A stretch of DNA of 64,000 nucleotides, from the IMG/VR virus record IMGVR_UViG_3300007512_001547, positions 62,001 to 126,000 of that record; one strand, written 5' to 3'. A model generated the notes under the pieces. That model was not told the origin of the DNA, searched no databases, and saw only the letters and a program-made list of their open reading frames with translations. The stretch's first letter is position 1. Every line of letters starts with the position of its first letter. Positions 4,153 to 63,724 of the stretch are shown here, piece by piece. The translations under genes and the position numbers were made by a program. Source of the stretch: a virus.

Positions 4153-4621
4153 AAAATTAAAATTTAAATTAGAACTATACGCAACAATGTGGGATAAGCC
4201 ACCAATTGCTGATATAAAAATTAATGAGAAGAGTCATTTCAAAGAAGAAATCACAGGTACTAACGATAAACCAACTATTATAGAATTTGAGCACGAATTT
4301 GAAGAAAATAAATCATATAATTTTATCATAGACAGATTAGGTAAAGATAAAAAACAAACAATAGTTGAAGATGGAAAAATTGTTAAAGATCAACTATTAC
4401 ATATAAAATCTATAGAAATTGACGAAATTGAGCTTGGTTCATTAATATACGAAGGTGTATATAAACCTAACTATCCAGAACCATGGGCATCACAACAAGC
4501 AGAAGCAGGCAACAAACTACCAGAAACTCTTAAAAATGTTACCCAAATGGGTCATAACGGTACCTGGACATTCTCATTTACTTCACCCTTTTATATGTGG
4601 CTATTAGAAAACCTTTACTAA
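4142..4621 (+). CDS. Hypothetical beta-rich protein, possible virion or carbohydrate-binding component
   Basis: A 159-aa protein predicted from composition to be mostly beta strand, with a Trp/Pro-rich C-terminal half (motifs near YPEPWASQQ and WTFSFTSPFYMWL). From memory, similar proteins of this length occur in marine T4-like phages as unnamed conserved proteins, sometimes likened to carbohydrate-binding modules; I cannot verify that. It is the last gene before the first T4-type late promoter, so it may end the transcript that begins at 122. Confidence 0.6.
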   Translation: MATEKLKFKLELYATMWDKPPIADIKINEKSHFKEEITGTNDKPTIIEFEHEFEENKSYNFIIDRLGKDKKQTIVEDGKIVKDQLLHIKSIEIDEIELGSLIYEGVYKPNYPEPWASQQAEAGNKLPETLKNVTQMGHNGTWTFSFTSPFYMWLLENLY

Positions 4622-4627
4622 TAAATA
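4622..4627 (+). promoter_or_regulatory. T4-type late promoter
   Basis: TAAATA followed by TGCTTAT, 7 nt before the ATG at 4635. There is no Shine-Dalgarno between the element and the ATG. Confidence 0.6.
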
Positions 4628-4634
4628 TGCTTAT

Positions 4635-4991
4635 ATGAGAGCAAATCAATTCATAACAGAAGCACAAGATTCAGACGCAATAAACGAGTTAGACTTGTTT
4701 ATTATGAACGATGAAGATTTATATCGTAGACGTTTTATGCCTATTATAACAAATATTAAAAGAAAAATGAAAAGAGGCATATACGATCACGAAAAAGTAA
4801 TTAAATTATGGATGTATCTTGTTGATGATGCCGCAAGACAATACGTACAAGAATTTGGCACACCTGACCAAGATGTTAAAGATATGTTTCCTAAAGAAAC
4901 TAGACTGCAAGTTGCTCAAATAATTGCAAATAGAGAAAAAGAAAATATAGAACAAGGCGAATACGATGCACCTAAGGGAATTGTTTCTTAA
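4635..4991 (+). CDS. Late protein with capsid-targeting-like N-terminus
   Basis: A 118-aa protein beginning MRANQFITEA. This matches the T4 capsid-targeting propeptide of internal proteins (IPIII begins MKTYQEFIAEA), which the gp21 prohead protease cuts after I-x-E. Here the cut would fall after Glu9. The rest is helical and charged, with a Leu/Tyr/Arg-rich core (about residues 20-75, DLYRRRFMPII ... KRGIYDHEKVIKLWMYL) that I associate from memory with conserved unnamed proteins of marine T4-like phages. Its 3' end overlaps the next gene by 26 nt. Likely a protein packaged in the head; its job after that is unknown. Confidence 0.75.
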   Translation: MRANQFITEAQDSDAINELDLFIMNDEDLYRRRFMPIITNIKRKMKRGIYDHEKVIKLWMYLVDDAARQYVQEFGTPDQDVKDMFPKETRLQVAQIIANREKENIEQGEYDAPKGIVS

Positions 4992-6138
4992 GGAGGATGA
5001 CAGGTCCACAGCCGTCTTTGCATTTGGCCGATTCAATCCTCCCACAATAGGACACCAAAAATTAATAGAAAAAGTACAGTCAATGGCTAGACAAGTCAAT
5101 GGCAAAGGATATCTATTTTTAACACATACACAAAACAATAAAAAAGATCCATTAACGTTTCAAGAGAAACAAGCATACATTACAAGTCAAGTAAATGATC
5201 CTAATTTGCAAATTGGAAGTGCAGATGTAAAAACAATTATTCAAGCATTACAAAAAATAGAAGCACAAGGTAGAACAAGAGTAATAATGGTTGCTGGTGA
5301 TGATCGTGTAATGGAATTCCAAAAATTTTTAAATCAATATAACGGCAATCCAGATAAGCAAGGTAACATTCCTTATAAATTTGATGACGTCCAAGTAGTC
5401 AGTGCTGGACAAAGAGATCCAGACGCAGATGACATAGCAGGTGTTTCAGCATCTAAGGCAAGAGAGTTGGCACTAAAAGGTCAGGAACATGAATTTTCTA
5501 AAATAGTAATGGGCGGTGATGCTGGTAAAGTACTATACGATAAAATACAAGACGCACTTGGAGTCCAGGTTGCTGAAAACAACAAAAAGTTGTATAATGA
5601 AGATATGGACGGTAAACCAATAGTATATATTGACATGGATGGCGTTTTGGCTGACTTCTTTGGTGGTGTTGAAAAAATGTATGGCGTACAACACTGGAAA
5701 GAATTAAGTTCAGACAAAACTAAAGATTTAAAACAAGAAGTTATTAATAGAATATCAGGCACAGATTTTTTTGCAACACTTCCTAAATTTGATAGTGCTG
5801 GTGAATTAATATCAATGGTTAAAGAGTTTACTGGTGGAAACTTTTCAATTAACACATCTCCTTTAAGAGGTGACAATGAAAACTCTACCAAATACAAAAA
5901 ATTATGGATACAAAATAACATTGAACAACCAGATGAAATTGTAATAACAGGACGTAAAGAAAGTTATGCAAAAGACAAAGCATCTGGTACACCAAATATT
6001 TTAATAGACGACAGGCCAGTTAATATTGAACGTTGGCAGGGAGCGGGAGGTTATGGAATTTTATATCAAGCAAATAGAGATTCACTAACTAAAGTAAAAC
6101 AAGCACTTGACCAATATGGTAAATCAGATCAATCATAG
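4966..6138 (+). CDS. Nucleotidyltransferase - HAD phosphatase fusion with capsid-targeting-like N-terminus
   Basis: A 390-aa two-domain protein. Residues 1-10 (MHLRELFLKE) resemble the capsid-targeting propeptide, with a cut expected after Glu10. Residues about 15-195 are a cytidylyltransferase/NMN-adenylyltransferase-type fold: FGRFNPPTIGH (T-x-G-H at 27-30) and the late VSASKAREL, equivalent to the ISxTxxR motif. Residues about 218-390 are a HAD hydrolase with Asp223 and Asp225 in DMDGV and a late IDDRP, like 5'(3')-deoxyribonucleotidases. NadM-like enzymes occur in T4-like phages for NAD salvage. The substrates are not certain, and a general nucleotide or phosphoester function is possible. 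The propeptide is encoded within the 26-nt overlap with the previous gene. Confidence 0.85.
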   Translation: MHLRELFLKEDDRSTAVFAFGRFNPPTIGHQKLIEKVQSMARQVNGKGYLFLTHTQNNKKDPLTFQEKQAYITSQVNDPNLQIGSADVKTIIQALQKIEAQGRTRVIMVAGDDRVMEFQKFLNQYNGNPDKQGNIPYKFDDVQVVSAGQRDPDADDIAGVSASKARELALKGQEHEFSKIVMGGDAGKVLYDKIQDALGVQVAENNKKLYNEDMDGKPIVYIDMDGVLADFFGGVEKMYGVQHWKELSSDKTKDLKQEVINRISGTDFFATLPKFDSAGELISMVKEFTGGNFSINTSPLRGDNENSTKYKKLWIQNNIEQPDEIVITGRKESYAKDKASGTPNILIDDRPVNIERWQGAGGYGILYQANRDSLTKVKQALDQYGKSDQS

Positions 6139-6781
6139 ATATCTTCACTTTGGACCAGTAATAGGTGGCACAAAATGTAATACTGATCTCTGTAAAGAAC
6201 TATTAAATCGTGGTCATAAAACAACTAGATCACACGTTAAAAATCTTGCAGGTCATATGAAAAAGGAAAATATCTTCGAAGACCTAGATAAGAAATGGTT
6301 TGTTGATAATTTTCAAAACTATTTTATTCCTTATTTTAAAAAATTACAAGACAAATCAGATCCCAATTACTATTATGGTATGGATCCTTTTAAAGAAATA
6401 TGGCTCGCAACATTATGGATTAATTTTATGAAAAAGGGAGAATATAATCCTCCACATAATCATACTGGAGACTTTTCATTTGTTTTATACTTGCAAGTTC
6501 CAGAAGAATTAAAAAAAGAAGATCAAGCATTTGAAGGACGAGGTAGTGGACCTGGAACAATAAGTTTTATATATGGAGAAGAACAAAAAGGTATTAGCAC
6601 TGGTCATGGAATACTCCCTACTATAAATGATTTATGGATATTTCATTCATCATTAAAACATACTGTACCACCATTTAGATCAGATGTAGAACGTATTTCT
6701 GTTTCAGGAAATTGGTATATTACAGATCATATAAAAGATAAAAGCAAAGAACTAGAATTTGGAAAAATTTTAATTAAATAA
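6116..6781 (+). CDS. Putative 2-oxoglutarate/Fe(II)-dependent oxygenase
   Basis: A 221-aa protein. Residues 112-128 (PPHNHTGDFSFVLYLQV) and a late segment with HTVPPF and an Arg (SDVERISVSGNW) match the double-stranded beta-helix pattern of the 2OG-Fe(II) oxygenase group common in marine phages and bacteria (TIGR02466-like): a metal His/Asp region, then a distal His and an Arg that binds 2-oxoglutarate. His114, His116 and Asp119 are the candidate ligands, but which pair binds iron is unclear. A start at 6116 is preferred to a TTG at 6107; it overlaps the end of the nucleotidyltransferase gene. The substrate is unknown; nucleic acid, protein or small molecule are all possible. Confidence 0.75.
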   Translation: MVNQINHRYLHFGPVIGGTKCNTDLCKELLNRGHKTTRSHVKNLAGHMKKENIFEDLDKKWFVDNFQNYFIPYFKKLQDKSDPNYYYGMDPFKEIWLATLWINFMKKGEYNPPHNHTGDFSFVLYLQVPEELKKEDQAFEGRGSGPGTISFIYGEEQKGISTGHGILPTINDLWIFHSSLKHTVPPFRSDVERISVSGNWYITDHIKDKSKELEFGKILIK

Positions 6782-6793
6782 CAAAAAGGAAAT

Positions 6794-6973
6794 ATGGCAA
6801 AATTCAGCGGGATCAATAGAGCATACACAACAGGTGAAATACCAAAAACACCACAAGAAAAACAAAGAGAGTTAGATAAAAAAATGCAAGAGTTTTTAGC
6901 CAAAGGCGGCAAAGTAGAAAAATTAAAAGATCATAAGCCTACCAAAGAACAATTAAGATCATGGAAGATTTAG
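6794..6973 (+). CDS. Small basic protein, unknown
   Basis: A 59-aa lysine-rich protein. The ATG follows AAAGGAAAT, an acceptable ribosome-binding site, 12 nt after the oxygenase stop. It contains LAKGGKVEKL (about residues 35-44), nearly identical to LAKGGKVEKV in the 708-aa protein at 12678-14804, so this segment is a shared module. Its end overlaps the start of the next gene by 13 nt. No known domain recognised. Confidence 0.65.
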   Translation: MAKFSGINRAYTTGEIPKTPQEKQRELDKKMQEFLAKGGKVEKLKDHKPTKEQLRSWKI

Positions 6974-7167
6974 AACGTTTAAAAAAATTAGCAGGCATTG
7001 AGAATTTACCTGTAGAAGATTCAATGGGAGAAAACCTTTCTCTTCATGGAACAAAAAAAGCAGAATATCAAAGAAAACATAATGTCCGTCCTGGAACAGA
7101 AGAATGGTTTAAACTGTGGTTTGCTAGACCCAAACTAACAGGTGAGAACCCAATGCCAAAAAAATAA
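6961..7167 (+). CDS. Small late protein with LKKLAGI motif
   Basis: A 68-aa protein beginning MEDLERLKKLAGIENL. The helix ending in KLAG[IL] recurs at the C-terminus of the protein at 15673-15909 and at residues about 55-62 of the protein at 14830-15663, which suggests a shared docking or scaffold-binding motif. The C-terminal half (RPGTEEWFKLWFARPKLTG) is Trp/Pro-rich. The start overlaps the previous gene. No family name recognised; a small head or core-associated protein is a reasonable guess. Confidence 0.65.
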   Translation: MEDLERLKKLAGIENLPVEDSMGENLSLHGTKKAEYQRKHNVRPGTEEWFKLWFARPKLTGENPMPKK

Positions 7168-7185
7168 TACCTAAATTTTACAAAT

Positions 7186-7191
7186 TAAATA
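7186..7191 (+). promoter_or_regulatory. T4-type late promoter
   Basis: TAAATA followed by CTGGCA, 6 nt before the ATG at 7198. The 30-nt gap around it is otherwise empty. Confidence 0.6.
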
Positions 7192-7197
7192 CTGGCA

Positions 7198-8289
7198 ATG
7201 TTTGATGTTAAACAAAACAAAGCAATATGTATTTTACCATGGGTCCATGAGTTTAAAAATATAACTGGACAATCTGCTCCTTGTTGCCATGCACAAAAAT
7301 ACAAAAATAACCAAACCATAGATTATGTAAGAGACTCTATGTTGAAGGGCATACAACCTGATGTATGTAGTAATTGTTACAAAAGTGAAAAAGAATCAAA
7401 TTGGAGTCATAGAATAAGAGAAACCAACGATTGGATTAAAAAATTTGGTACTCCAGACATAGATAATCCAAAAATACAATTTGCAGATATTAGATACAAT
7501 CCAACTTGTAATTTAAAATGTAAAACTTGTAATGCAGAAGAAAGCACTTTATGGGCAAAAGAAAAAGGCATAAAAATTTCTATAAATGAAGAAAATCAAA
7601 ATTATATCCATACATTAGATAAAAAAATACTTAAAAAAGTTTACCTTGCAGGAGGAGAACCCACTTTTATAAAAGACTATTTAGAATTTTTAAATGCTTT
7701 ACATCTTGTTAATCCTTTTTGTGAAGTAATTATTAACACAAATCTAAAAAGACTGCCTGCTCCATGGAAAGAAATAATTAAAAAATTTGAAAATTTAACA
7801 ATAATTTGTTCTTGTGATGCTGTTGGTATACTTGGTACATATGTACGTTATCCTTTAGGTTGGGATGAATTTGAACAAAACGTTAAATTTGTAAGTGAGA
7901 ATGCAAACTTTCTACAATTTAATTTAGTTGCAAGTAATTTAACTTCTCACAAATTATACGAAACTTGCTCATGGATGAAGCAATATTCAAATCATATTAA
8001 TATATCTATTTTAAATGAACCCGAAATTTTTTTAGAATGTAGTGTACCATTGGAATACAGAGAAACATACATTAATAATATTAAAAAACTATTAAAATTT
8101 CCTGTATCTGTTTATTATGCTTCACAATTCAGAAGTGAAATAAACTATCTAATCAAAAAATACTCGACAGCGAAATATGTAAAATCATCACATAATGCGT
8201 TAAAAGACGAAATTACTGAACAAGATTCGCATAGACACTTAAAACTAATAGACGTTGATCCATTTTTACACTCTTGGATATTTCAATAA
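7198..8289 (+). CDS. Radical SAM protein with N-terminal SPASM/twitch-like module (copy 1)
   Basis: A 363-aa protein. The radical SAM core has CX3CX2C at Cys104/108/111 (CNLKCKTC) and a SAM-binding AGGEP. Before the core lies a four-cysteine module: Cys11 (CILPW), Cys29-Cys30, and Cys57/Cys60 (CSNC) followed by a Glu. This resembles a SPASM/twitch auxiliary-cluster domain moved to the N-terminus. I recall the family being named twitch domain-containing radical SAM protein; no substrate is known to me. It is inserted among late genes behind its own late promoter. The C-terminal region after about residue 300 has no recognised domain and differs from the other copies. Confidence 0.88.
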   Translation: MFDVKQNKAICILPWVHEFKNITGQSAPCCHAQKYKNNQTIDYVRDSMLKGIQPDVCSNCYKSEKESNWSHRIRETNDWIKKFGTPDIDNPKIQFADIRYNPTCNLKCKTCNAEESTLWAKEKGIKISINEENQNYIHTLDKKILKKVYLAGGEPTFIKDYLEFLNALHLVNPFCEVIINTNLKRLPAPWKEIIKKFENLTIICSCDAVGILGTYVRYPLGWDEFEQNVKFVSENANFLQFNLVASNLTSHKLYETCSWMKQYSNHINISILNEPEIFLECSVPLEYRETYINNIKKLLKFPVSVYYASQFRSEINYLIKKYSTAKYVKSSHNALKDEITEQDSHRHLKLIDVDPFLHSWIFQ

Positions 8290-8292
8290 ATA
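8287..8292 (+). promoter_or_regulatory. T4-type late promoter
   Basis: TAAATA overlapping the stop of the radical SAM gene and ending 7 nt before the ATG at 8300. It favours 8300 over the upstream in-frame ATG at 8255. Confidence 0.6.
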
Positions 8293-8299
8293 TTCATAT

Positions 8300-8908
8300 A
8301 TGCGAATAAATGAAATCCTAGAAGGTCCACACGATCCTTTTAGACATAAAGCAATATTTTTTGCTGGCTCTCCTGGTGCAGGTAAAACATATGTTGCTAG
8401 AAAATTAGCAGGTGTATTCCAAGGATTAAAACAAGTAAACATGGACACTTGGTTTAAACGTCTCATGACAAAGAAAAACTTATCATGGAAAATGCCTCCT
8501 GAAGAGGAACCTGAACGAGAAAAACAAAGACAAAGATCAAAAGAATTAGTTGCTAAACAACAACAATTACACACCGAAAGTGGATTAGGTTTGCTAATAG
8601 ATTCTACAGGTAGAGTATATGAAACTATTGAAAGAATAAAAAGTGGATTAGAAGATAAAGGATATGAAACAACAATGGTTTTTGTCAACACTGATTTACA
8701 AACTGCTTTACGTAGAAACAAACAAAGAGAACGTCAATTACCTGACGATCTTATACATAAAAATTTTGAAGTTATAGAACAAAATTTAGGAAGATTTCAA
8801 CGTTTGTTTAATGACGTACATATTATTAATAATTCTGATGATGAACAAGACACAATGCCTGAACAAATAGTACAAGTTGAAAAAGACATTAGAAAATTTT
8901 TGCAATGA
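8300..8908 (+). CDS. P-loop kinase (zeta toxin / AAA_33-like) with capsid-targeting-like N-terminus
   Basis: A 202-aa protein starting MRINEILEGP; a gp21-type cut is expected after I-L-E, Glu8. Residues 23-30 are a Walker A motif (GSPGAGKT) preceded by a hydrophobic strand. Later come LLIDSTGR, a conserved Asp/Ser strand, and an Arg-rich lid (about residues 140-155, ALRRNKQRERQLPDD). This is the layout of small kinases of the zeta-toxin/polynucleotide-kinase group. Phosphoryl transfer to a nucleotide, sugar nucleotide or RNA end is possible; the substrate cannot be assigned. The start was chosen because of the late promoter and the N-terminal motif. If packaged, the kinase would enter the cell with the DNA. 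Confidence 0.82.
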   Translation: MRINEILEGPHDPFRHKAIFFAGSPGAGKTYVARKLAGVFQGLKQVNMDTWFKRLMTKKNLSWKMPPEEEPEREKQRQRSKELVAKQQQLHTESGLGLLIDSTGRVYETIERIKSGLEDKGYETTMVFVNTDLQTALRRNKQRERQLPDDLIHKNFEVIEQNLGRFQRLFNDVHIINNSDDEQDTMPEQIVQVEKDIRKFLQ

Positions 8909-9162
8909 AAATACTTAGAATTATATTATGGCCTTTTAAGATGTTGTCAAACATATTATCTGCAAATTACTGGGCAAACAAAATAGCCGATAAAACCAAT
9001 ATGCATGAAAAGGTACAAGGTAGTAGATTTAATAGATGGCAGAATAGTCTACCTCAACCATATAGATTTATATTCAAAACATCTATGTTGATAATATGTA
9101 TCTACCTTATTGAGATGTATTTTAATCTAGTAGGTATGTCAATGTTGCCATGGAGATGGTAG
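8905..9162 (+). CDS. Small membrane protein, unknown
   Basis: An 85-aa protein whose ATG overlaps the stop of the kinase gene (ATGA). It has a hydrophobic, possibly amphipathic N-terminus (residues 1-20) and a clear membrane segment near residues 55-78 (FKTSMLIICIYLIEMYF). Basic and aromatic residues lie between. The following thioredoxin-like gene starts immediately after its stop, so they are probably coupled. No family recognised. Confidence 0.65.
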   Translation: MKILRIILWPFKMLSNILSANYWANKIADKTNMHEKVQGSRFNRWQNSLPQPYRFIFKTSMLIICIYLIEMYFNLVGMSMLPWRW

Positions 9163-9543
9163 ATGAAAAAACTATTATTAACTTTATTTTTTATATTATT
9201 TACTTTTCCAATATATGCAAAAGAACACTTACAATTGTTAATGGCACACAATCCAGGTTGTAATATTTGTCAAAATTTTATTAACGAAGTAGCAGTAGAC
9301 TATAACGATACTGAACAATCAAGGTATCTTCCATTAGTCATAATTAATGTATATAAACAACCTGAATGGTTTAAAGAAGCATATGCTGAAAACAGAATTA
9401 AACATATTAGAGGAACACCAACATTTATTATATGGAATGGTAAAAAAGAGTTATCAAGACTTACTGGTTATAGAGACAAAGGCGATTTTATGATAAGAAT
9501 TAACATTTTTATTGAGGAACACAAATTAGATTATGAGAATTAA
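9163..9543 (+). CDS. Exported thioredoxin-like protein
   Basis: A 126-aa protein with a typical signal peptide (MKKLLL, then a hydrophobic core, cut probably after A19 in IYA-K). The mature part has a CxxC redox motif at Cys33-Cys36 (GCNIC) and the cis-Pro region RGTPTFIIW, both hallmarks of the thioredoxin fold. The length fits a single periplasmic thioredoxin domain of the SoxW/DsbE-like kind. It would act on disulfides or haem-linked thiols in the periplasm of the infected cell, which is unusual for a lytic phage gene. Its 3' end overlaps the next gene by 11 nt. Confidence 0.82.
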   Translation: MKKLLLTLFFILFTFPIYAKEHLQLLMAHNPGCNICQNFINEVAVDYNDTEQSRYLPLVIINVYKQPEWFKEAYAENRIKHIRGTPTFIIWNGKKELSRLTGYRDKGDFMIRINIFIEEHKLDYEN

Positions 9544-10180
9544 TGAAATTATAGGTGAATGGCTGATAATGCCCCAATCAATTAAACCTATGGGTTTAAT
9601 TAGAAAACCTGGTGGGGGTTTTGACTTTAAAAATAAAGGCAACAACAGAGCCAACGAAAAAGCACCTCCTGGCAGAGAAAAACAAGTTAAAGCATTAAAA
9701 GGCAAGGTTGATAATCCATATGCAGTTGCTTGGGCTTCTTATAACAAAAGCAAAAATAAAACTAATGAAGCACCGATAGAACAAGATCATAACAATCCTA
9801 TAGCAAAACCATATGTTGATATGCCAGAATGGAAAGCATTACACGATATGGATGACAAAATTATTGACGCATACATTAAACACAAACAAGTAAAAGAAGA
9901 GGTAGATCAATTTGCACCAGCAAGAGCATTAGGTGAAGCTCAATCTTCTTTAATGCATGGATTACAAATGGCTCAAAATATAATTAAAAAAGATTATAAA
10001 TTGGCAGAAGTTCAAGCCAAAGTCATTGCAGAAAATTGGCCACCTTTGATTGATAAAATTCAAAACATATACAAAAAAGAAGATGCCGCCGGTGTTGGTA
10101 TTATTACCAAACAAAACACCACTAAAGACGTCAAACCTGGCGACGAATATAAGAACGTAAAAAAATTACACCTTAGATAA
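9533..10180 (+). CDS. Late protein with capsid-targeting-like N-terminus and NPYAVAWASY motif
   Basis: A 215-aa protein starting MRINEIIGEW, a propeptide-like N-terminus with a possible cut after Glu9. Residues about 58-75 contain VDNPYAVAWASYNKS, a short motif I have seen in various phage and DNA-associated proteins (N-P-x-A-x-A-W). The rest is helical and charged (about 95-190). No enzymatic motif is visible. A packaged head protein is the best guess from its N-terminus and its place among late genes. Confidence 0.7.
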   Translation: MRINEIIGEWLIMPQSIKPMGLIRKPGGGFDFKNKGNNRANEKAPPGREKQVKALKGKVDNPYAVAWASYNKSKNKTNEAPIEQDHNNPIAKPYVDMPEWKALHDMDDKIIDAYIKHKQVKEEVDQFAPARALGEAQSSLMHGLQMAQNIIKKDYKLAEVQAKVIAENWPPLIDKIQNIYKKEDAAGVGIITKQNTTKDVKPGDEYKNVKKLHLR

Positions 10181-10202
10181 TACAAATAATTACTTTATAC
10201 GT

Positions 10203-10946
10203 ATGATACACCTTAGAAGTTTTGGTAATAATGACGATCCTGTTATGGGAGCAGGAAACTCAACTTGGGACGCTAATTCAGGTTTACGGAAAAAAATAAT
10301 GTTTGAAAATATATCTAAGTTGCCTTACGACTTTAATAATAAAAAAATTTTAACAATAGCAGGAGGAGTAGGCAGAAATGCCGATACTCTTAGAAACTTA
10401 GGTGCAAAAGTAACAAATTCTGATTTAGGTCAACTTTGCGTTAATATTGGAAAAAGATATTACCCTAAAATTAATCATATTGTTTATGACCTGCGTAATG
10501 ATCCTTTGGAAGGATTTGACTATGTTGTATGGGAACAAATATGGACTAGAGCATATGATTTTAAAACATGGGAACATATGTATAAGTGGAAAAATTTTGC
10601 AAGAATTATTCCAAATCCGATACGATTAAAAATTTTTAAATTTAATAGTGATTACATAGATAAGACTTATTATCAACCTGAAAAAATTGGTAATGATTAT
10701 ATTAAAAGACAATTTGGTGATGGAATTTGTAATGTTAAAATGGAAACTGATATAATTGAAGATTTAATTGAAGAAGATATTGAAATTGATCTATTCAATC
10801 TGAACATTAATATACCAAAGGTGTCAAGTCATAGGTATCAAATTTTAGGTTTTAAGACAGAGCTTATTTCTAACAGAATAAATGGAATTTTTATATCCAA
10901 TGGTATAAGATTAAAATTTGAAAACGGAAAAATCAAAAAAATATGA
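10203..10946 (+). CDS. Putative SAM-dependent methyltransferase-like protein
   Basis: A 247-aa protein. Residues about 47-85 (KKILTIAGGVGRNADTL ... VTNSDL) look like strand 1, the glycine-rich loop and strand 2 of a class I methyltransferase, and VYDLRNDPLEGFDYVVWEQ (about 98-116) would be strands 3-4. The C-terminal third is unlike common methyltransferases. The SAM-binding loop is atypical, so another Rossmann enzyme is possible. The last bases overlap the next gene (ATGA). An 11-base stretch around its start (TACACCTTAGA) also occurs at the end of the previous gene, possibly a trace of insertion. Confidence 0.55.
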   Translation: MIHLRSFGNNDDPVMGAGNSTWDANSGLRKKIMFENISKLPYDFNNKKILTIAGGVGRNADTLRNLGAKVTNSDLGQLCVNIGKRYYPKINHIVYDLRNDPLEGFDYVVWEQIWTRAYDFKTWEHMYKWKNFARIIPNPIRLKIFKFNSDYIDKTYYQPEKIGNDYIKRQFGDGICNVKMETDIIEDLIEEDIEIDLFNLNINIPKVSSHRYQILGFKTELISNRINGIFISNGIRLKFENGKIKKI

Positions 10947-11815
10947 GTTATATATTAGGTATTGGTTTACTATATAAAAAGTATAAAAAAAATGCAACAA
11001 TTAGAATTTATATAAACAATAATTTAATTGAAACATATCAATTAACACAAGACATCAATCATATAGAAATACCCACAAGTATAATAAAAAGTTTTATGAA
11101 AAAACTCAAACGGTTTAACCATAATTCTCTCTCCATTCCTGATCTAATTCAAATTAAATGTAAAATTCCAAAATTTTTAAAATTAATTGAAATTGAAGAA
11201 GAAAAACTTACTGGAGAAGTTAGAATTGAAGTTGACAATGATGATAGTAATTATACTAATGGATTTATGTCAAAGTCATCACTAATAGAACCAAATTTTT
11301 TTATACTTTGTCCAAAAGAACTTTTAAAAAACAATGGGCAGTTTTTTTTCGAATTCCAAGAAAACCTATACAAAAAATTAGTATCTAAGATTGAAAAAGA
11401 TAAGGATTTTTCGATCCGGAGCGAAAAACCCAGACTGGAGTGGCCAATACCTCAATTTTTTGATATTGTTTTAGATAGAAACAATAAAATTAATAAAATT
11501 AAAAAAGATTGTGAAAAACAAGAACTTTGGTATCAACGTAATGGGGCATATAAGGATAATCAGAAAAATTATAACTTTCCAAGAACAAAATGGATAGATC
11601 TTTTTAAAAAACGTGGTACTTTAGCTGACCCTTATGTTTTACCATATTTTACACAATATCCACAATATATTGGAGGATCATTTCATATAACATTTAACAT
11701 TAACAAAAAGAATAAAATATATTTTCTAGACGCATATAATGTAACTAGTGGAAACCCTACAGTTTCTATGCAAACCTTTTCGTTTGCCCACTACTTTTCC
11801 CATAAATATAAGTAA
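10943..11815 (+). CDS. Unknown protein
   Basis: A 290-aa, Lys/Ile-rich protein that overlaps the methyltransferase-like gene by 4 nt and the following gene by 1 nt. The N-terminal half (about 1-120) looks beta-rich. The C-terminal part contains RTKWIDLFKKRGTLADPYVLPYFTQYPQYIGGSFHITF, which is well ordered but not a motif I recognise. No cysteine cluster, P-loop, signal peptide or membrane segment. It and its upstream neighbour look like an inserted two-gene accessory cassette between two capsid-targeting-type genes. Confidence 0.65.
   Translation: MSYILGIGLLYKKYKKNATIRIYINNNLIETYQLTQDINHIEIPTSIIKSFMKKLKRFNHNSLSIPDLIQIKCKIPKFLKLIEIEEEKLTGEVRIEVDNDDSNYTNGFMSKSSLIEPNFFILCPKELLKNNGQFFFEFQENLYKKLVSKIEKDKDFSIRSEKPRLEWPIPQFFDIVLDRNNKINKIKKDCEKQELWYQRNGAYKDNQKNYNFPRTKWIDLFKKRGTLADPYVLPYFTQYPQYIGGSFHITFNINKKNKIYFLDAYNVTSGNPTVSMQTFSFAHYFSHKYK
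11803..11808 (+). promoter_or_regulatory. T4-type late promoter
   Basis: TAAATA inside the end of the upstream gene, 6 nt before the ATG at 11815. Confidence 0.5.
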
Positions 11816-12102
11816 TGAAAATTACAGAAATTATAATACATAAACGAATAGGTGAACAAGCAACTGCAGGTGCTACATCAAGCGGCAATATAGCAACAGT
11901 TACATCACCACACGTTGCAATAGGCAAGGATAGAGGTAATAAATCCTATATAGGATCACCAGGACGTTCAGGCACAAAAGCACCAAAACTACCTAAAATA
12001 GTACAAAAGAAAAATAAAGACGGTACAGCTAAACCATGGCATGAATTAGGAAAAGGTACTAGTATGTTTGGTGGGCCTGTACAACGGAGACCATATCCAT
12101 AA
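11815..12102 (+). CDS. Small Gly/Thr/Lys-rich late protein with propeptide-like N-terminus
   Basis: A 95-aa protein starting MKITEIIIHKRIGEQATAG. The first helix and the G-E-Q site resemble a somewhat longer capsid-targeting propeptide, with a cut after Glu14. The rest is low-complexity, rich in Gly, Ser, Thr and Lys, and contains no catalytic motif, like the small DNA-associated internal head proteins of T4. It ends in a TAATG overlap with the next gene. Confidence 0.65.
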   Translation: MKITEIIIHKRIGEQATAGATSSGNIATVTSPHVAIGKDRGNKSYIGSPGRSGTKAPKLPKIVQKKNKDGTAKPWHELGKGTSMFGGPVQRRPYP

Positions 12103-12248
12103 TGGAACTAAAAAAATGCAAGAACTGTGGTGGTGATTCACACTGCGAAACTAGAGCTACAAGAACGGAACATAGGTATCCATCTGAAGGCGGCGAAGAA
12201 TATGAAATAGAAGTATGCCGTGAATGTAGATGCGACACTTGTAAATAA
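12102..12248 (+). CDS. Small cysteine-rich (zinc-ribbon-like) protein
   Basis: A 48-aa protein whose ATG overlaps the preceding TAA. It has CKNCGG near residue 6 and CRECRCDTC at residues 39-47: two CxxC pairs plus extra cysteines, fitting a zinc ribbon or knuckle. Between them is a charged loop. No close family recognised. Such microproteins often bind nucleic acid or another protein; the role here is unknown. Confidence 0.65.
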   Translation: MELKKCKNCGGDSHCETRATRTEHRYPSEGGEEYEIEVCRECRCDTCK

Positions 12249-12251
12249 ATA
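12246..12251 (+). promoter_or_regulatory. T4-type late promoter
   Basis: TAAATA followed by CTACT, 5 nt before the ATG at 12257; with its flank it matches the T4 late consensus core well. Confidence 0.65.
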
Positions 12252-12256
12252 CTACT

Positions 12257-12676
12257 ATGAAAGCACAAGAATTTATTCAAGAAGGCGCATCAATGTTACC
12301 TTACTTTAAAAAAGATGAAAAAACTTGGTCTTTTCCAGATGCTTGGGCAAAAGACGAAGCATTAGACACACCTTATATGAGTAATATGAGTATGCGTCAG
12401 TTTTTAGACACACTAGGATATGACAGTGATTTTGAAAGTGCAAGTCCAGTAGATGCAAAAGAATTTATAGGACGTACTACACAATGGTTACAAAAAAATA
12501 TTGATAAACCATCACAAGAAATTCCAACAACAGTTGATAGATCCGGAGGCGGTGCTACAATGATAGGTGGCGGAAAACCAGAAGGTTGGGATAATAGACA
12601 AGTAAAACATCATAACGAATTAGCAAGAAAAATTTTAGCAAAATATCCAGAAGTAACACATTTTGGATTTAATTAA
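12257..12676 (+). CDS. Late protein with canonical capsid-targeting-like N-terminus
   Basis: A 139-aa protein starting MKAQEFIQEGASM. This is the closest match in the window to the T4 internal-protein propeptide (M-K-x-x-x-E/Q-F-I-x-E, then A/G), with a cut expected after Glu9. The remainder is acidic to neutral with aromatic residues and a Gly-rich stretch (about residues 94-108, RSGGGATMIGGGKPE). No enzyme motif visible. Predicted to be packaged in the head. Confidence 0.72.
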   Translation: MKAQEFIQEGASMLPYFKKDEKTWSFPDAWAKDEALDTPYMSNMSMRQFLDTLGYDSDFESASPVDAKEFIGRTTQWLQKNIDKPSQEIPTTVDRSGGGATMIGGGKPEGWDNRQVKHHNELARKILAKYPEVTHFGFN

Positions 12677-12677
12677 T

Positions 12678-14804
12678 ATGAAATATAACGAATTTAATAA
12701 CCCTAGAGAAAAACCACAAGTTAGACCAGTAACAACCATGACGTCAAAAGAGCTTGGTGATAGAATAGAAAAAGCAAGAGCAAAAAATTATAAAAAACCT
12801 GAACCATTGGACTTTACAAAATTATGGAGTAAAGAAAAACCAGCAGTAGAAGCAGGTGTAACACCAGGCGGAACAAAAGTTGATTATGCCAATATAATGT
12901 TTCGTGGTAAAGAAATAGATCATAATAGTATAGAATATGAAATGCAGGATTTTAGTGATATGATTTATGAGCTACATGGAGCAAAATATATAGATGGTAC
13001 ACCTTTAACTGATGAAGAATTACAAGAACTTGAAAGGACAGACGAATTTACTGACTGGGTTAGTATGGATTATGCATCATCTGGACCAGATGCGCCAGAC
13101 GATTATCCATTTGAAGAAGACGGTATGACATCTGCTGATGTTGATCGAATAAGAAACCAAAAGTTTACTACCAACCAAATTAAACAGGCTTATCGTGTTT
13201 TAAATCATCCAAGAGTTAAAGGTGGCAATTATACAGCCGCTTATAATATTATTAATAGAATTGCTCCTGGTCTAGCAGATCACCCAGATGTTGCAAACGC
13301 ATTAAGAAGAGCAAATGAAATGAAAGAAGATATAACAACAATGGCATCAAGAGTAATCAGAAATTATGCTAGAGAGATTGGTCCGGATTCCATGGACTAT
13401 GGTATGTTTATGACATCAGCAGAACTATTAGACAAAGGTATGCTGAAATCATTAGCACAACTTATAGATAAGTCAGATACCGCTCCAAGAGAATACGTAA
13501 TGAAAAAAATAGCGGATCATGATCCAGAGACATTTAAAAAAATGTATGGTGACCAAGAGGGTTATCTTTCTGTAATGAAACCAGCACAAGATTTAAAAGA
13601 TGCTGACTACAATAACTCTTTACAAAATAAATTAGATAAAGCTATGCAAGAATACGACTCACCAGAAAAGAAAGCAGAACGTGATGCATTAATGAAAAAG
13701 TATCTTGCTAAAGGTGGAAAAGTTGAAAAAGTACCAACAGGAAAAACTGCATACAAAGGAAAAGAATTAAAACCACAATATAAAAAAGATAATGGAACAC
13801 CAATTACAAGTCCAATGAGCGACGAATCAGTGCAAGAAGACATTTCAGAAAAAGGCAGAATTGCTTTAGAAAAAGCAGGATTTGATCCAAATGCAATTCA
13901 TGAGTATATGGCAGTGTTCAATGACCACGGTGATACTTCAGAGTTAGAAGACATGAACGAAGTTAAAATTGGAGTAGCAGATGCTATGGCCATGGTGTTA
14001 GCATCTCACGATGCTGGAGATATGTATCCAAAAAGTCCATATAGTAGTGATCCAAAATATAGAAGTAAAGAATCAGTTGAAGAATCATCTATCAAACCTT
14101 ATGTGTCAATGTATAAAGGTGATGATGGAAAAACTGTATATGACGTACTAGACAAAGACGGTAAATCAGCATACAAAACAAAAGATGAAAGATTAGCACA
14201 GCATTACTTCAAAAAAAATTATCAAAAATTAAAAGAAGACGGCGCTCCATTTGGTTCAGGCATGGAACTTTTAAGAATGGCAATTATGAGAAAGTTTATT
14301 ACTGTTCAAGAATGGGATTTATTAAAACACAAATGGAAAGAAGCGGCCGCTGAAGTTGAACAACAATATAGTGATTGGCCAGAAGGCGAAGGTTTTGGAT
14401 CATCAGATCACAACTTTGCAATTAGAGATTTAATGACTGCTGTTGGATATGAATTTGATGACCAAGATACAAGTGGTAGATTTGTTGTTACAAAACAACC
14501 AGAAGAAATAGAAAAAGCAGGTATTAAAAATGTTAGAATGCAAGGTGAACCTGTTGCAACAGAAGGTGGTATGCCTGCTTCAATTATTAAACATAAACAA
14601 AAACTTGCACATATGTCTGATGAAGAATTAGCAGATAGATTTAAAGATTTTGATGAACAAAGATTAAGACAAATGGCTTGGAGACACGGATATGGTAAAA
14701 TGAGTTCTCATTACTTGGACAGAGTTAGAAACCATATGACTAGCAAAAGAACTGGAACATACGAATCAAAACTTGCTAATATGTTAAATCAACGTCTTAA
14801 ATAA
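12678..14804 (+). CDS. Large late protein, unknown, modular
   Basis: A 708-aa protein starting MKYNEFNNPREKPQ, one base after the previous stop; an in-frame ATG at 12663 lies inside the previous gene and is less likely. Composition is acidic and helical with repeated Lys/Glu-rich linkers and several short modules: NQIKQAYRVLNHPRVKGGNY (about 170-189), LAKGGKVEKV shared with the protein at 6794-6973, YKGDDGKTVYDVLDKDGKSAYKT, and a C-terminal SDEELADRFKDFDEQRLRQM. It lacks catalytic motifs. It looks like a bead-on-string virion or core protein. The N-terminus is reminiscent of the propeptides but lacks a clear cut site. Confidence 0.7.
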   Translation: MKYNEFNNPREKPQVRPVTTMTSKELGDRIEKARAKNYKKPEPLDFTKLWSKEKPAVEAGVTPGGTKVDYANIMFRGKEIDHNSIEYEMQDFSDMIYELHGAKYIDGTPLTDEELQELERTDEFTDWVSMDYASSGPDAPDDYPFEEDGMTSADVDRIRNQKFTTNQIKQAYRVLNHPRVKGGNYTAAYNIINRIAPGLADHPDVANALRRANEMKEDITTMASRVIRNYAREIGPDSMDYGMFMTSAELLDKGMLKSLAQLIDKSDTAPREYVMKKIADHDPETFKKMYGDQEGYLSVMKPAQDLKDADYNNSLQNKLDKAMQEYDSPEKKAERDALMKKYLAKGGKVEKVPTGKTAYKGKELKPQYKKDNGTPITSPMSDESVQEDISEKGRIALEKAGFDPNAIHEYMAVFNDHGDTSELEDMNEVKIGVADAMAMVLASHDAGDMYPKSPYSSDPKYRSKESVEESSIKPYVSMYKGDDGKTVYDVLDKDGKSAYKTKDERLAQHYFKKNYQKLKEDGAPFGSGMELLRMAIMRKFITVQEWDLLKHKWKEAAAEVEQQYSDWPEGEGFGSSDHNFAIRDLMTAVGYEFDDQDTSGRFVVTKQPEEIEKAGIKNVRMQGEPVATEGGMPASIIKHKQKLAHMSDEELADRFKDFDEQRLRQMAWRHGYGKMSSHYLDRVRNHMTSKRTGTYESKLANMLNQRLK

Positions 14805-14816
14805 AACTACAACAAA

Positions 14817-14824
14817 TATAAATA
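14817..14824 (+). promoter_or_regulatory. T4-type late promoter, perfect match
   Basis: TATAAATA followed by CTTAG, 5 nt before the ATG at 14830. This is the exact T4 late octamer. Confidence 0.75.
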
Positions 14825-14829
14825 CTTAG

Positions 14830-15663
14830 ATGGCACATAATAAATCCGAAGATAATAGTTTTAGAGACCTGGTTGCTCGTTTAAACGCAATGAGTAACAT
14901 GACTCCTGAGCAAGAACGTGCATCTCTAATGGAATCAGTTGGCAAGGCACCAAAAGTACTAGACGACAAAGACATTTCATTAGCAGATATTGCCAAATTA
15001 GCAGGTATTAAAGAATATGTTGAACCTGTAAAAGTTTCTAAAAAAGCACAAAAACTAGTTGAGGAAATTACTAAAGAACCAAAAGTAGAATCAAGCATAG
15101 CTAAAGCAATAGCAGAGTCTGACGCTGATGATTCAATATCAACAAACATTAAAAAAGCAGTAACAGAAGAAAGCAATAGATTAGATAAAATTACTGAACT
15201 TGAAGCACAACTAGCAGAATTAAAAGCAGAACAAAAAGAAGAACAAACATATGATAGTAAAGCATTTAGAGACGTTATCTCAACAGATATCGCAGAATAT
15301 ATTAAAAACGCAGAAGAATCTCAACTTGTTGAATTATACAACACTTTCTCAGACAATGAAGCAATTTACAATGAAGAACAAAAAAGCATTCTTGTCAAAA
15401 CTCCAGAAACTACAGAAATAATTGCAGACGCAGAAAAAGCAGAAGCACCTGAAGAAGATGAAGTTGTTCAAGAAAAAGAACCAGAAGAAAGATCAGTAGA
15501 CTTAGATAAAGAAGTTTTACCAGATCCTGGAACACCATCAGTAGAAACACCTGCTGTAGAAGATGGTGGCGAAGAAGTTGAACTAGATGCTGTTGAACCA
15601 GCAATTGAAGTCCCTCAACAAGATAAATTTACCAACGATTTAGACCCAGTAGAAAAAAAATAA
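14830..15663 (+). CDS. Acidic coiled-coil late protein, possibly scaffold/core
   Basis: A 277-aa strongly acidic protein. Residues 1-60 are helical and include DIAKLAGI, the KLAG[IL] motif also seen at 6961 and 15673. Residues about 117-150 (NRLDKITELEAQLAELKAEQ) form a short coiled coil. The C-terminal 80 residues are a Glu/Pro/Val-rich disordered tail. The composition fits a prohead core or scaffold-associated protein. No family recognised with confidence. It is the gene with the best late promoter of the window. Confidence 0.7.
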   Translation: MAHNKSEDNSFRDLVARLNAMSNMTPEQERASLMESVGKAPKVLDDKDISLADIAKLAGIKEYVEPVKVSKKAQKLVEEITKEPKVESSIAKAIAESDADDSISTNIKKAVTEESNRLDKITELEAQLAELKAEQKEEQTYDSKAFRDVISTDIAEYIKNAEESQLVELYNTFSDNEAIYNEEQKSILVKTPETTEIIADAEKAEAPEEDEVVQEKEPEERSVDLDKEVLPDPGTPSVETPAVEDGGEEVELDAVEPAIEVPQQDKFTNDLDPVEKK

Positions 15664-15666
15664 ATA
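15661..15666 (+). promoter_or_regulatory. T4-type late promoter
   Basis: TAAATA overlapping the stop codon of the upstream gene, 6 nt before the ATG at 15673. Confidence 0.6.
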
Positions 15667-15672
15667 CCCTAT

Positions 15673-15909
15673 ATGACGGGTATTCCTTACAACTATAAAG
15701 ATTATATTAATGACGTTACTAAAATGCGTCAAAGAGGAGCCATTAGTGCAGGTGAACAAGTAAAATCTCCTAACAGTGCTGGTAGTAGAGGACTTGCAAA
15801 AGTTGAAGCATTTGCTGATAGTCCAAATCAAATAATGAAAAATAACGATGTAGTTGAAGAACACGATCAAGAATTACAACGTATCATGAAATTAGCGGGT
15901 CTACTCTAA
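15673..15909 (+). CDS. Small late protein ending in RIMKLAGLL
   Basis: A 78-aa protein. The N-terminal half is basic with Tyr and Asn (YNYKDYINDVTKMRQRG), the middle is Gly/Ser-rich, and the C-terminus is a helix ending in ELQRIMKLAGLL. That motif, in a different position, links it to the proteins at 6961 and 14830. It is the last gene of the late block before the replication block. No known family recognised. Confidence 0.68.
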   Translation: MTGIPYNYKDYINDVTKMRQRGAISAGEQVKSPNSAGSRGLAKVEAFADSPNQIMKNNDVVEEHDQELQRIMKLAGLL

Positions 15910-61471: not shown

Positions 61472-62838
61472 GCGTTTTTACACTCCTGCCAAAATTCTGA
61501 CATTTCTGGGAATACTGTTTCAAAGTTTGTTAAGCGTCTACGATCATGTTCGTTAAAAAATGCGTAAAAGTTCTTTTTAGTTTGCGTACTAGTGTCTGCA
61601 TTTTTACGCCAATAAGCTAAATTGCGTAACATTTTTTGAATCTCAAAGTCTTTGAATATGTGTAATCCTTTATCTTCTCCAGAATTTTCTCTCATATATT
61701 CTATGTTGGCTTCATGTATTGCTTGATATGCCTCAGGCAATAATGTTATCTGTTGCCATGCAGGCTGTCTAAGCAATGGTATATCAAACCATACTCGTTG
61801 ATACGTTTTACTATGTCGTTTTCGTAATTCTAAAATACCTTCTAATAACTTATCCAAACTTGTAACACTAAGATTATTGTATGTGATTATAAAAGTAACT
61901 GAATTACGTACTGGTATACGATCCAAAAATTCATCTACATTATCCCACATACGATTAAATTCTAATCCATTTCTAATATATTCTGCTTGTTTACCCCATG
62001 CATCAACTGAAACAAATTGCATGAAATGTTCAACTTTCTCCTCAATACAGATTTTCTTAACCATATCAAAATATTTGTTTTTTAATTTGTTATTAGGTGG
62101 ACACATATTACTGGTTACGTTTAAGTGTAAGTCTTGTTTTGGATTATTAATAACGTATTCAAATACTTTATATGTGTTATTGTCCATCATAGGTTCACCA
62201 CCTGTCATACGAAAATGTTTTAAATTTTTATATAATGTAGGCCACCACTTCCAAAAAGCAGTAACATAAGGATTATCTTCTTTATGTGGTATTGGACGTT
62301 TTCTTCCTTGAAAGTGTTCAGGTGCATTGTGGGGAGGAGATGTTGGATATTGGCCATATACAGCAATCTCCTTCCCCCACGTTGTCGAGAATTGTGGTGA
62401 GCAATAAGAACACTTAAAATTACAAGCATTATTAAAGTTTACTTCCACATATCTCGGTGTCCAACGTTCGTCCATTGGATTTTGTTTAATTGCTGTAAAG
62501 TCTTGCATGGCCCATGGTTCACCAGAACGATAATGTCTATCTGACATTTCGCCTGTGTCTTCCATTTTCCAACAATATGAACAACCCTCAGGCCGTTCTC
62601 CTTTAAGCATTTGTTGTCTTTGATTTAATTTTTCTGCTGTATTATGTAGTGCCGCAGGATTATCTTCTAATTTTGTTGCATCTATTTCATGTAAAGGTGG
62701 ATGATAGCAACTGTTTGTTAATCCAGTAGGCAAGTGTAATGAAACTTGATTCCATTTTGCCAAACACATAGTTGGTGAAACATTATCAAGTAAACTTTTA
62801 GCCAACTCTGCATCTGCTTTATAATTACTTGTACTCAC
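61468..62838 (-). CDS. Radical SAM protein with N-terminal SPASM/twitch-like module (copy 11, His subgroup)
   Basis: A 456-aa protein, the longest copy. Cys25 (TMCLAKW), Cys44-Tyr-His-Pro, NPAALHNT, Cys86/Cys89 (CSYC, then WKMEDTGE), core Cys139/143/146 (ACNFKCSYC) and TGGEP. It shares the inserted segment with copy 10, so the pair arose by duplication. The following GT-A-like gene overlaps it by 14 nt at its start. In the minus-strand operon it precedes all other copies. Confidence 0.86.
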   Translation of the reverse strand: MSTSNYKADAELAKSLLDNVSPTMCLAKWNQVSLHLPTGLTNSCYHPPLHEIDATKLEDNPAALHNTAEKLNQRQQMLKGERPEGCSYCWKMEDTGEMSDRHYRSGEPWAMQDFTAIKQNPMDERWTPRYVEVNFNNACNFKCSYCSPQFSTTWGKEIAVYGQYPTSPPHNAPEHFQGRKRPIPHKEDNPYVTAFWKWWPTLYKNLKHFRMTGGEPMMDNNTYKVFEYVINNPKQDLHLNVTSNMCPPNNKLKNKYFDMVKKICIEEKVEHFMQFVSVDAWGKQAEYIRNGLEFNRMWDNVDEFLDRIPVRNSVTFIITYNNLSVTSLDKLLEGILELRKRHSKTYQRVWFDIPLLRQPAWQQITLLPEAYQAIHEANIEYMRENSGEDKGLHIFKDFEIQKMLRNLAYWRKNADTSTQTKKNFYAFFNEHDRRRLTNFETVFPEMSEFWQECKNA

Positions 62839-63724
62839 GGTCTTGTACTCCTGTGTTGAATGGGCGTGGCATTACAAATTTAAAAAAATTGCTTTGGTCT
62901 TCATCAAAATTTTCACAAGGTATATCTATTCTTTGCTTAAGACTATTGCCATATACTTCTAAATCTTCATCTACTTTATCTTCAACTATACCATTTGCAA
63001 ATAAATCTGCCATTTTATCTAACTCTCTAATTTGTATAAATTCGGTTGAATCCACAGTAGTTGAATAACAACCCATTCTTGCTCCTAACATAGCATACTT
63101 GCCATACTCAACATCTGCACCTACAGTCATCCACGTGGTTAGTATTCTAAGATTGCTACCTTGTATAACACGCATAAAATTTTGTGGTGGTATATGTTTA
63201 CCTTGATTTAAACTCATCTTAACACCTTCTCTATAACCTGCTATCCAAGCCTGTTGTGGTGTTGCATTAATAACAGTAGTTGAATAACAATTATGTAAAT
63301 TTTCATGAGGTACTGTCCAACAAAAATCTATTTCTGCTTTTTCATCTTTTGCGTTTTCGTGTGTTTTCATTTGCAAACAAGTTTCACGTGGCCATCCTAC
63401 CAAACCACCATTGCCATATACTAAATTATTAACATTATTTCTTGCTCGCCAACGATGTACGGCTTTTGGATCTGTTTTAGACCAATCTAAAGTTTGTAAT
63501 AAAAAACTCTCATCTATAATATTGTCTCCATCAACTGAAATAAAAAAATCTGTTTCTGCTTTTTCTGCCGCGGCTTTGTGTGCTGAATCAAATCCTTTAA
63601 CTCCGTCAACACGCTTTGCCCACGGCACTTTGCTTAACAAGTCTGCCCAATTCTCTTCTTTGTTTGGTTCAGCATAACTTATAAAAACAAAGTCTAAATC
63701 CGAGACTCTTACTCTATCCGCCAT
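62825..63724 (-). CDS. GT-A-like glycosyltransferase
   Basis: A 299-aa protein. FVFISYAEPNKEENWADLL (12-30), then KRVDGVKGFDSAHKAAAEKAETDFFISVDGDN (38-69), a nucleotide-binding half with DxD at Asp65-Gly-Asp67. The order is that of GT-A glycosyltransferases. A metal-dependent sugar transfer from a nucleotide sugar is expected. The gene at 51816 is a paralogue that lost the DxD. It opens the run of radical SAM genes in transcription order and overlaps the partial gene before it by 16 nt. Confidence 0.75.
   Translation of the reverse strand: MADRVRVSDLDFVFISYAEPNKEENWADLLSKVPWAKRVDGVKGFDSAHKAAAEKAETDFFISVDGDNIIDESFLLQTLDWSKTDPKAVHRWRARNNVNNLVYGNGGLVGWPRETCLQMKTHENAKDEKAEIDFCWTVPHENLHNCYSTTVINATPQQAWIAGYREGVKMSLNQGKHIPPQNFMRVIQGSNLRILTTWMTVGADVEYGKYAMLGARMGCYSTTVDSTEFIQIRELDKMADLFANGIVEDKVDEDLEVYGNSLKQRIDIPCENFDEDQSNFFKFVMPRPFNTGVQDREYK

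Follow-up and report, generated by a model that had tools for sequence, protein, structure and literature searches.

In bacteriophage T4, the internal proteins IPI-III are small, basic products of late-promoter genes and carry an N-terminal propeptide of 8–14 residues ending in (L or I)-x-E, which is cut by gp21; the T4 record gives IPII and IPIII the N-terminus MKTYQEFIAE/A (slashes mark known or predicted cuts), and the residues for capsid targeting and for processing are separable (PMC9026906). Similarly, a short head propeptide (MELITELFDE/D) is carried by an enzyme of T4, the injected RNA polymerase ADP-ribosyltransferase Alt. Among cyanophages, cytidylyltransferase or NMNAT-like proteins have been detected in virions of S-SM1 (T4-GC190; Sullivan et al. 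2010, PMC3037559), S-CREM2 (ORF154; PMC10665884) and S-SCSM1 (ORF91; PMC9602691); the accessible portions of these papers do not link NMNAT-like enzymes to a targeting tag and leave carry-over open, and such enzymes and kinases stand there as either cargo or preparation leftovers, a question that a T4-type tag makes directly testable. Here, we describe a block at 4.6–12.3 kilobases (kb) of a 64,000-nucleotide window (bases 62001–126000 of a linear viral record of 137,583 bases), in which six proteins bear N-termini resembling these propeptides and most probably represent head cargo of a T4-like marine phage. The isolate relatives of the record are the T4-like phages HTVC008M (Pelagibacter) and Melnitz (Methylophilales), together with cyanophages.

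The original prediction, made from the sequence of this window, held that six proteins share a T4-like capsid-targeting N-terminus, among them a nucleotidyltransferase-HAD fusion and a P-loop kinase. All six N-termini are present, starting exactly at positions 4635, 4966, 8300, 9533, 11815 and 12257, and each tag ends in hydrophobic-x-Glu. Overall, the prediction is largely supported, in that its observation is confirmed and its interpretation is borne out in part. The six genes and their predicted propeptides are listed below (pLDDT, predicted local distance difference test score).

4635..4991, plus strand: tagged protein of 118 amino acids, predicted cut MRANQFITE/A
4635..4661, plus strand: predicted capsid-targeting propeptide MRANQFITE (strict T4 pattern)
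4966..6138, plus strand: fusion protein of an NMNAT-like nucleotidyltransferase (CTP_transf_like) and an NT5C-type HAD phosphatase (Pfam/PHROG, fold search), predicted cut MHLRELFLKE/D
4966..4995, plus strand: predicted propeptide MHLRELFLKE (relaxed T4 pattern; residues 1–10 with pLDDT below 50)
8300..8908, plus strand: P-loop kinase (Pfam, fold search), predicted cut MRINEILE/G
8300..8323, plus strand: predicted propeptide MRINEILE (residues 1–11 with pLDDT below 50)
9533..10180, plus strand: protein of 215 amino acids with the weakest tag, MRINEIIGE/W (strict T4 pattern here)
11815..12102, plus strand: small basic protein with predicted propeptide MKITEIIIHKRIGE, then a gp23-like segment, then a basic tail
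12257..12676, plus strand: tagged protein of 139 amino acids, predicted cut MKAQEFIQE/G (strict T4 pattern)

A strict pattern calibrated on T4, [EQDN][FIL][ILFVTM]xE near the N-terminus, identified seven of nine T4 head proteins (IPII, IPIII, gp68, gp21, gp22, gp24 and Alt) and 0/47 control genes, while a relaxed pattern identified the same seven with 4/47 controls. Measured in this way, the proposed resemblance to the T4 propeptide holds for some of the tags: the strict pattern is matched by 4635, 9533 and 12257 (3/6) and the relaxed pattern additionally by 4966 (4/6), but not by 8300, the tag of which is short by one residue, or by 11815, the tag of which contains an insertion. When the entire contig was scanned, the strict pattern was observed in 3/13 open reading frames (ORFs) of the block as opposed to 4/168 other ORFs (p=0.009), and it was enriched at ORF starts relative to internal Met residues (p=0.037). 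In the loci of relatives, the pattern occurred at 39/1002 starts versus 19/2753 internal Met residues (p=9e-11, with orthologues counted separately). Comparative evidence, and not the statistics of the contig, carries the case for capsid targeting.

Orthologues drawn from IMG/VR relatives (of which G001 is the closest long one) and from isolates revealed that neighbouring residues vary while the Glu persists, as does the hydrophobic residue two positions before it. The 4635, 4966 (close relatives), 8300 and 12257 families keep the site, the 11815 family mostly does and the 9533 family does not. All 10 of the 10 distinct orthologue N-termini of the 4635 family retain [FI][IL]xE in an MRAxQFIxE-like context, with the variation at x and at the residue after the Glu that a protease site would be expected to show. 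In the 4966 protein, E10 is at least 90% invariant (alignment A1) and LFLxE/D is retained in 11/11 close relatives, while distant relatives carry other canonical tags (MKTFKQFFNE/Q, MKSFKQFILE/Q and MRSKEFTE/A) directly before the same enzyme domain. Residues M1, E8 and G9 of the kinase are invariant, and [ILF]xE/G directly precedes the kinase domain in all 16 intact N-termini or junctions among relatives; this site is also kept internally, in ORFs of 995–1528 residues. Likewise, the 12257 family retains [ILVMF]xE/GA even in relatives whose fused ORFs have this protein as their C-terminal half, and the 11815 site is kept in 11/12 orthologues if V or M is allowed. In both the kinase and the 12257 families, the site outlasts a change of the partner upstream of it. 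The proposed capsid targeting is well supported for 4635, 4966, 8300 and 12257 and probably also for 11815, while for 9533 the targeting half of the tag is conserved but the Glu is not.

With regard to the two enzymes, the 4966 protein (80% identical to its counterpart in G001) matches PF01467 and NT5C above their cut-offs. The top results of a fold search were adenylyltransferases of nicotinic acid mononucleotide (NaMN) or nicotinamide mononucleotide (NMN) and phosphopantetheine adenylyltransferase, with a template-modelling (TM) score to the target of 0.5–0.7. Its nucleotidyltransferase fold contains an [HT]xGH-type motif in which NPPT and the H of NPPTIGH are invariant. By fold and motif this protein is NMNAT-like, and it may adenylylate NMN or NaMN. 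The tag MHLRELFLKE/D is close to that of Alt, yet no ADP-ribosyltransferase domain was identified when the tagged proteins of the window were scanned with Pfam and PHROG. The 8300 protein matches Zeta_toxin and AAA_33 above cut-off, and its best fold matches are the 5'-kinase of bacterial (Clostridium thermocellum) Pnkp and zeta toxin, with which it shares fold and Walker A motif and from which it differs by its predicted removable tag. A longer ORF opening with TTG at 8255 was ruled out as the kinase start, which was placed at ATG 8300 because of the late promoter at 8286–8292 and the starts of orthologues. In the structure models of both enzymes, most of the chain beyond the low-scoring N-terminal residues is better predicted. 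The description of these proteins as nucleotide-modifying enzymes is thus right in outline, and may be refined to an NMNAT-like nucleotidyltransferase-HAD fusion and a polynucleotide-kinase/zeta-like P-loop kinase. Both an RNA-end repair kit (kinase with HAD phosphatase) and a supply of nicotinamide adenine dinucleotide (NAD) against NAD-depleting defence were considered, and neither was concluded.

Proteins with such tags are found in the particles of related phages. SSM1_190 of S-SM1, which carries the T4-GC190 cluster label, begins with MKKFSAFLNE/A and shares 35% identity over the enzyme domain with its homologue, the 4966 protein, although the latter is additionally fused to a HAD phosphatase. 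Among the non-structural proteins of S-CREM2, virion proteins of which were defined by published mass spectrometry (PMC10665884), 7/14 proteins tagged according to the relaxed pattern were virion-detected compared to 19/179 untagged ones (odds ratio 8.4, p=7e-4), an enrichment that is supportive rather than blind because this pattern was fixed after part of the S-CREM2 N-termini had been seen. Virion-detected proteins with MKNFSSFLTE/A-type tags are the cytidylyltransferase (ORF154), a SAM hydrolase (ORF6), an APH-like kinase (ORF14), ORF13 and ORF136, while a virion-detected Cas9-annotated nuclease (ORF12) has a tag further inside the protein. Cut N-termini were not seen reported in the accessible portions of the S-SM1 and S-CREM2 virion publications.

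The block is also organised as expected of late genes. The T4-type late promoter box ATAAATA is strongly depleted in the window (7 copies, versus 53 expected from a shuffle control), and all seven copies (4621, 8286, 11802, 12245, 14818, 15660 and 46514) are located 5–7 nucleotides upstream of an ATG. Five late promoters had been attributed to the 4.6–12.3 kb block; exact ATAAATA boxes number four, with two more just downstream (14818 and 15660). Genes 4635, 8300, 11815 and 12257 are each preceded by a box, while 4966 and 9533 lack one of their own. Given the spacing of T4 late promoters, mRNAs driven by ATAAATA would here be nearly leaderless.

4621..4627, plus strand: T4-type late promoter box ATAAATA, 7 nucleotides before ATG 4635
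8286..8292, plus strand: late promoter box ATAAATA, 7 nucleotides before ATG 8300
11802..11808, plus strand: late promoter box ATAAATA, 6 nucleotides before ATG 11815
12245..12251, plus strand: late promoter box ATAAATA, 5 nucleotides before ATG 12257

We infer that the block very probably encodes capsid-targeted and protease-processed head cargo, which is probably injected. In the proposed sequence of events, the block would consist of genes that a T4-like marine phage expresses late for its head cargo, and the N-terminal propeptides of their products, 8–14 residues long, would bind the prohead core. A gp21-type prohead protease would then cut these propeptides after [ILF]-x-Glu, such that the mature NMNAT-like/HAD enzyme, the polynucleotide-kinase-like kinase and the small basic proteins would remain in the head. 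This cargo would pass into the host along with the DNA, where the delivered enzymes may act on the host NAD pool or on nucleic-acid ends. The tagged enzymes probably enter the host with the DNA because their tags are T4-like and because the particles of related phages hold proteins with the same tags. In propeptide length and ending, late promoters and small basic bearers the block resembles IPI-III of T4, from which it differs in that its bearers include the NMNAT-like/HAD fusion and the kinase, and in the absence of gp21 from the contig. If this reading is correct, the tag would provide a sequence rule by which the injected proteins of abundant ocean phages may be listed straight from metagenomes.

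Several observations weigh against this interpretation. The statistics of the contig are weak (p 0.009–0.037) and by themselves no more than suggestive. Neither gp21 nor gp23 was found on the 137.6-kb linear fragment; in G001 the genes for gp21, a gp22-like protein and gp23 are adjacent to each other, and gp21 is also encoded by HTVC008M and Melnitz. The virion mass spectrometry behind the case concerns homologues and tagged proteins of related phages and is applied to this phage by analogy. Furthermore, 0/3 S-CREM2 proteins that match the strict pattern were found in virions (S-CREM2 tags read F..F[LM]xE), and the relaxed pattern was written once some S-CREM2 N-termini were known. The site, or the extension as a whole, is missing from the 4966 orthologues of HTVC008M and of many cyanophage-type relatives, and the 9533 family does not conserve the Glu although its MK[IR]xEFI start is kept, most orthologues reading like MKIREFIIMP. 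Finally, the conserved E-G preceding the kinase domain could itself belong to that domain.

The alternative that survives best, though unlikely, is targeting without full processing, in which MK[IR]xEF[IL] docks proteins on the prohead core while not all of them are cut and the Glu is sometimes incidental. The behaviour of the 9533 family is in keeping with this, as are the separability of targeting and processing residues in T4 (PMC9026906) and the presence of MKTLKELLRKKVG in HTVC008M, but the Glu is retained at internal junctions as well as in four of the families (4635, 4966 among close relatives, 8300 and 12257). It is considerably less likely that the N-termini play no part in packaging and are alike because a promoter-plus-start cassette was inherited, or because short amphipathic helices suit leaderless late mRNAs: several tagged genes do combine a late box 5–7 nucleotides from the ATG with similar first codons, yet the untagged late genes 14830 and 15673 have the same promoter layout and not the tag, the site is also kept internally, far from any start codon, and tagged relatives are present in virions. 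Chance is the least probable explanation, since the commonness of short hydrophobic-x-Glu stretches near N-termini (loose [ILF]xE in 38/219 S-CREM2 proteins) and the modest p values of the contig are outweighed by the conservation among orthologues, the enrichment in S-CREM2 virions and the control on T4 genes.

Within the head-cargo interpretation, the 11815 protein is distinguished by a second feature, which was identified by local alignment of ORFs against each phage's own gp23.

11857..11901, plus strand: QATAGATSSGNIATV, a copy of the N-terminus that the major capsid protein of this lineage has when mature (local alignment against G001 gp23)

The 11815 protein shares the site YLSE/QATAGATSAGNVAT with G001 gp23, and its stretch KTMDVILENTKKYLSE/QATAGATSAGNVATL aligns with the G001 gp23 processing region KITEIIIHKRIGE/QATAGATSSGNIATV; the alignment to the G001 gp23 N-terminus scores 74, while the next of about 1000 contig ORFs scores 50. 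Similar copies were observed in S-CREM2 ORF160 (95 versus 46 for the next ORF; virion-detected), in SSM1_197 (62 versus 48), which also matches a PHROG labelled major head protein, and in a 109-residue ORF of the relatives G007 and G009 (78 versus 37) and G008 (76 versus 42), while HTVC008M, G010 and G012 displayed no clear gp23 copy by alignment score. The copies are mostly closest to gp23 of their own lineage, with the exceptions of SSM1_197 (higher against S-CREM2 gp23) and the G010 ORF (higher against G011 gp23). In the Agrobacterium jumbo phage Atu_ph07, gp053 has a gp23-like segment at its C-terminus. Judging from these alignments, mimicry of the own gp23 N-arm by small proteins of several lineages appears real and is possibly functional. 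Tentatively, 11815-type cargo, in which the gp23 copy usually stands just after the predicted gp21 site, might be processed like gp23 and replace the gp23 N-arm on the inner shell, thereby anchoring or arranging cargo, although we regard this as possible rather than probable. As far as could be found, the copying of a capsid-protein N-terminus onto a small cargo protein is undescribed.

As a separate observation, gp053-gp057 of Atu_ph07 are five consecutive proteins tagged M[KR]W[EN][QD]L[TN]E, with a YRGM motif reminiscent of ADP-ribosyltransferases, and one of the five also contains, as a fusion, a kinase related to the 8300 protein. HTVC008M gp127 (DUF6267) bears the tag MYNDLLVE/D, and its KxDG-like motif raised the possibility of a ligase; no homologue of gp127 was found on this contig.

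The tagged genes are accompanied by further late-block members.

6961..7167, plus strand: untagged neighbour of 68 amino acids with an [IL]xKLAG[ILV] motif near its N-terminus
12678..14804, plus strand: mosaic protein of 708 amino acids with an MKYNEF start and no usable site (relatives: MRFHEFKED or MRFHEFEKAEG)
14818..15909, plus strand: two more late genes (14830–15663 and 15673–15909), with ATAAATA 5–6 nucleotides before each ATG and a KLAG motif in each

The motif [IL]xKLAG[ILV], or a close variant, is common to the 6961–7167, 14830–15663 and 15673–15909 proteins and to the C-terminus of the G001 gp22-like protein (62525–63589), and it may constitute a second core-binding motif. The 59-residue protein encoded at 6794–6973 includes a stretch like the RNA-polymerase-binding domain of SutA (PF20661, E 4e-6, below the curated cut-off), which the LAKGGKV module of the 12678 protein resembles. 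Elsewhere in the window, inspection by eye indicated many radical-SAM/SPASM-like starts (NFC..PW) among sugar-nucleotide-type genes at 22420–63000, while upstream of the window DnaK-, ClpS- and Clp ATPase-like ORFs were likewise noted by eye at contig positions 565–2817 and 58196–60544.

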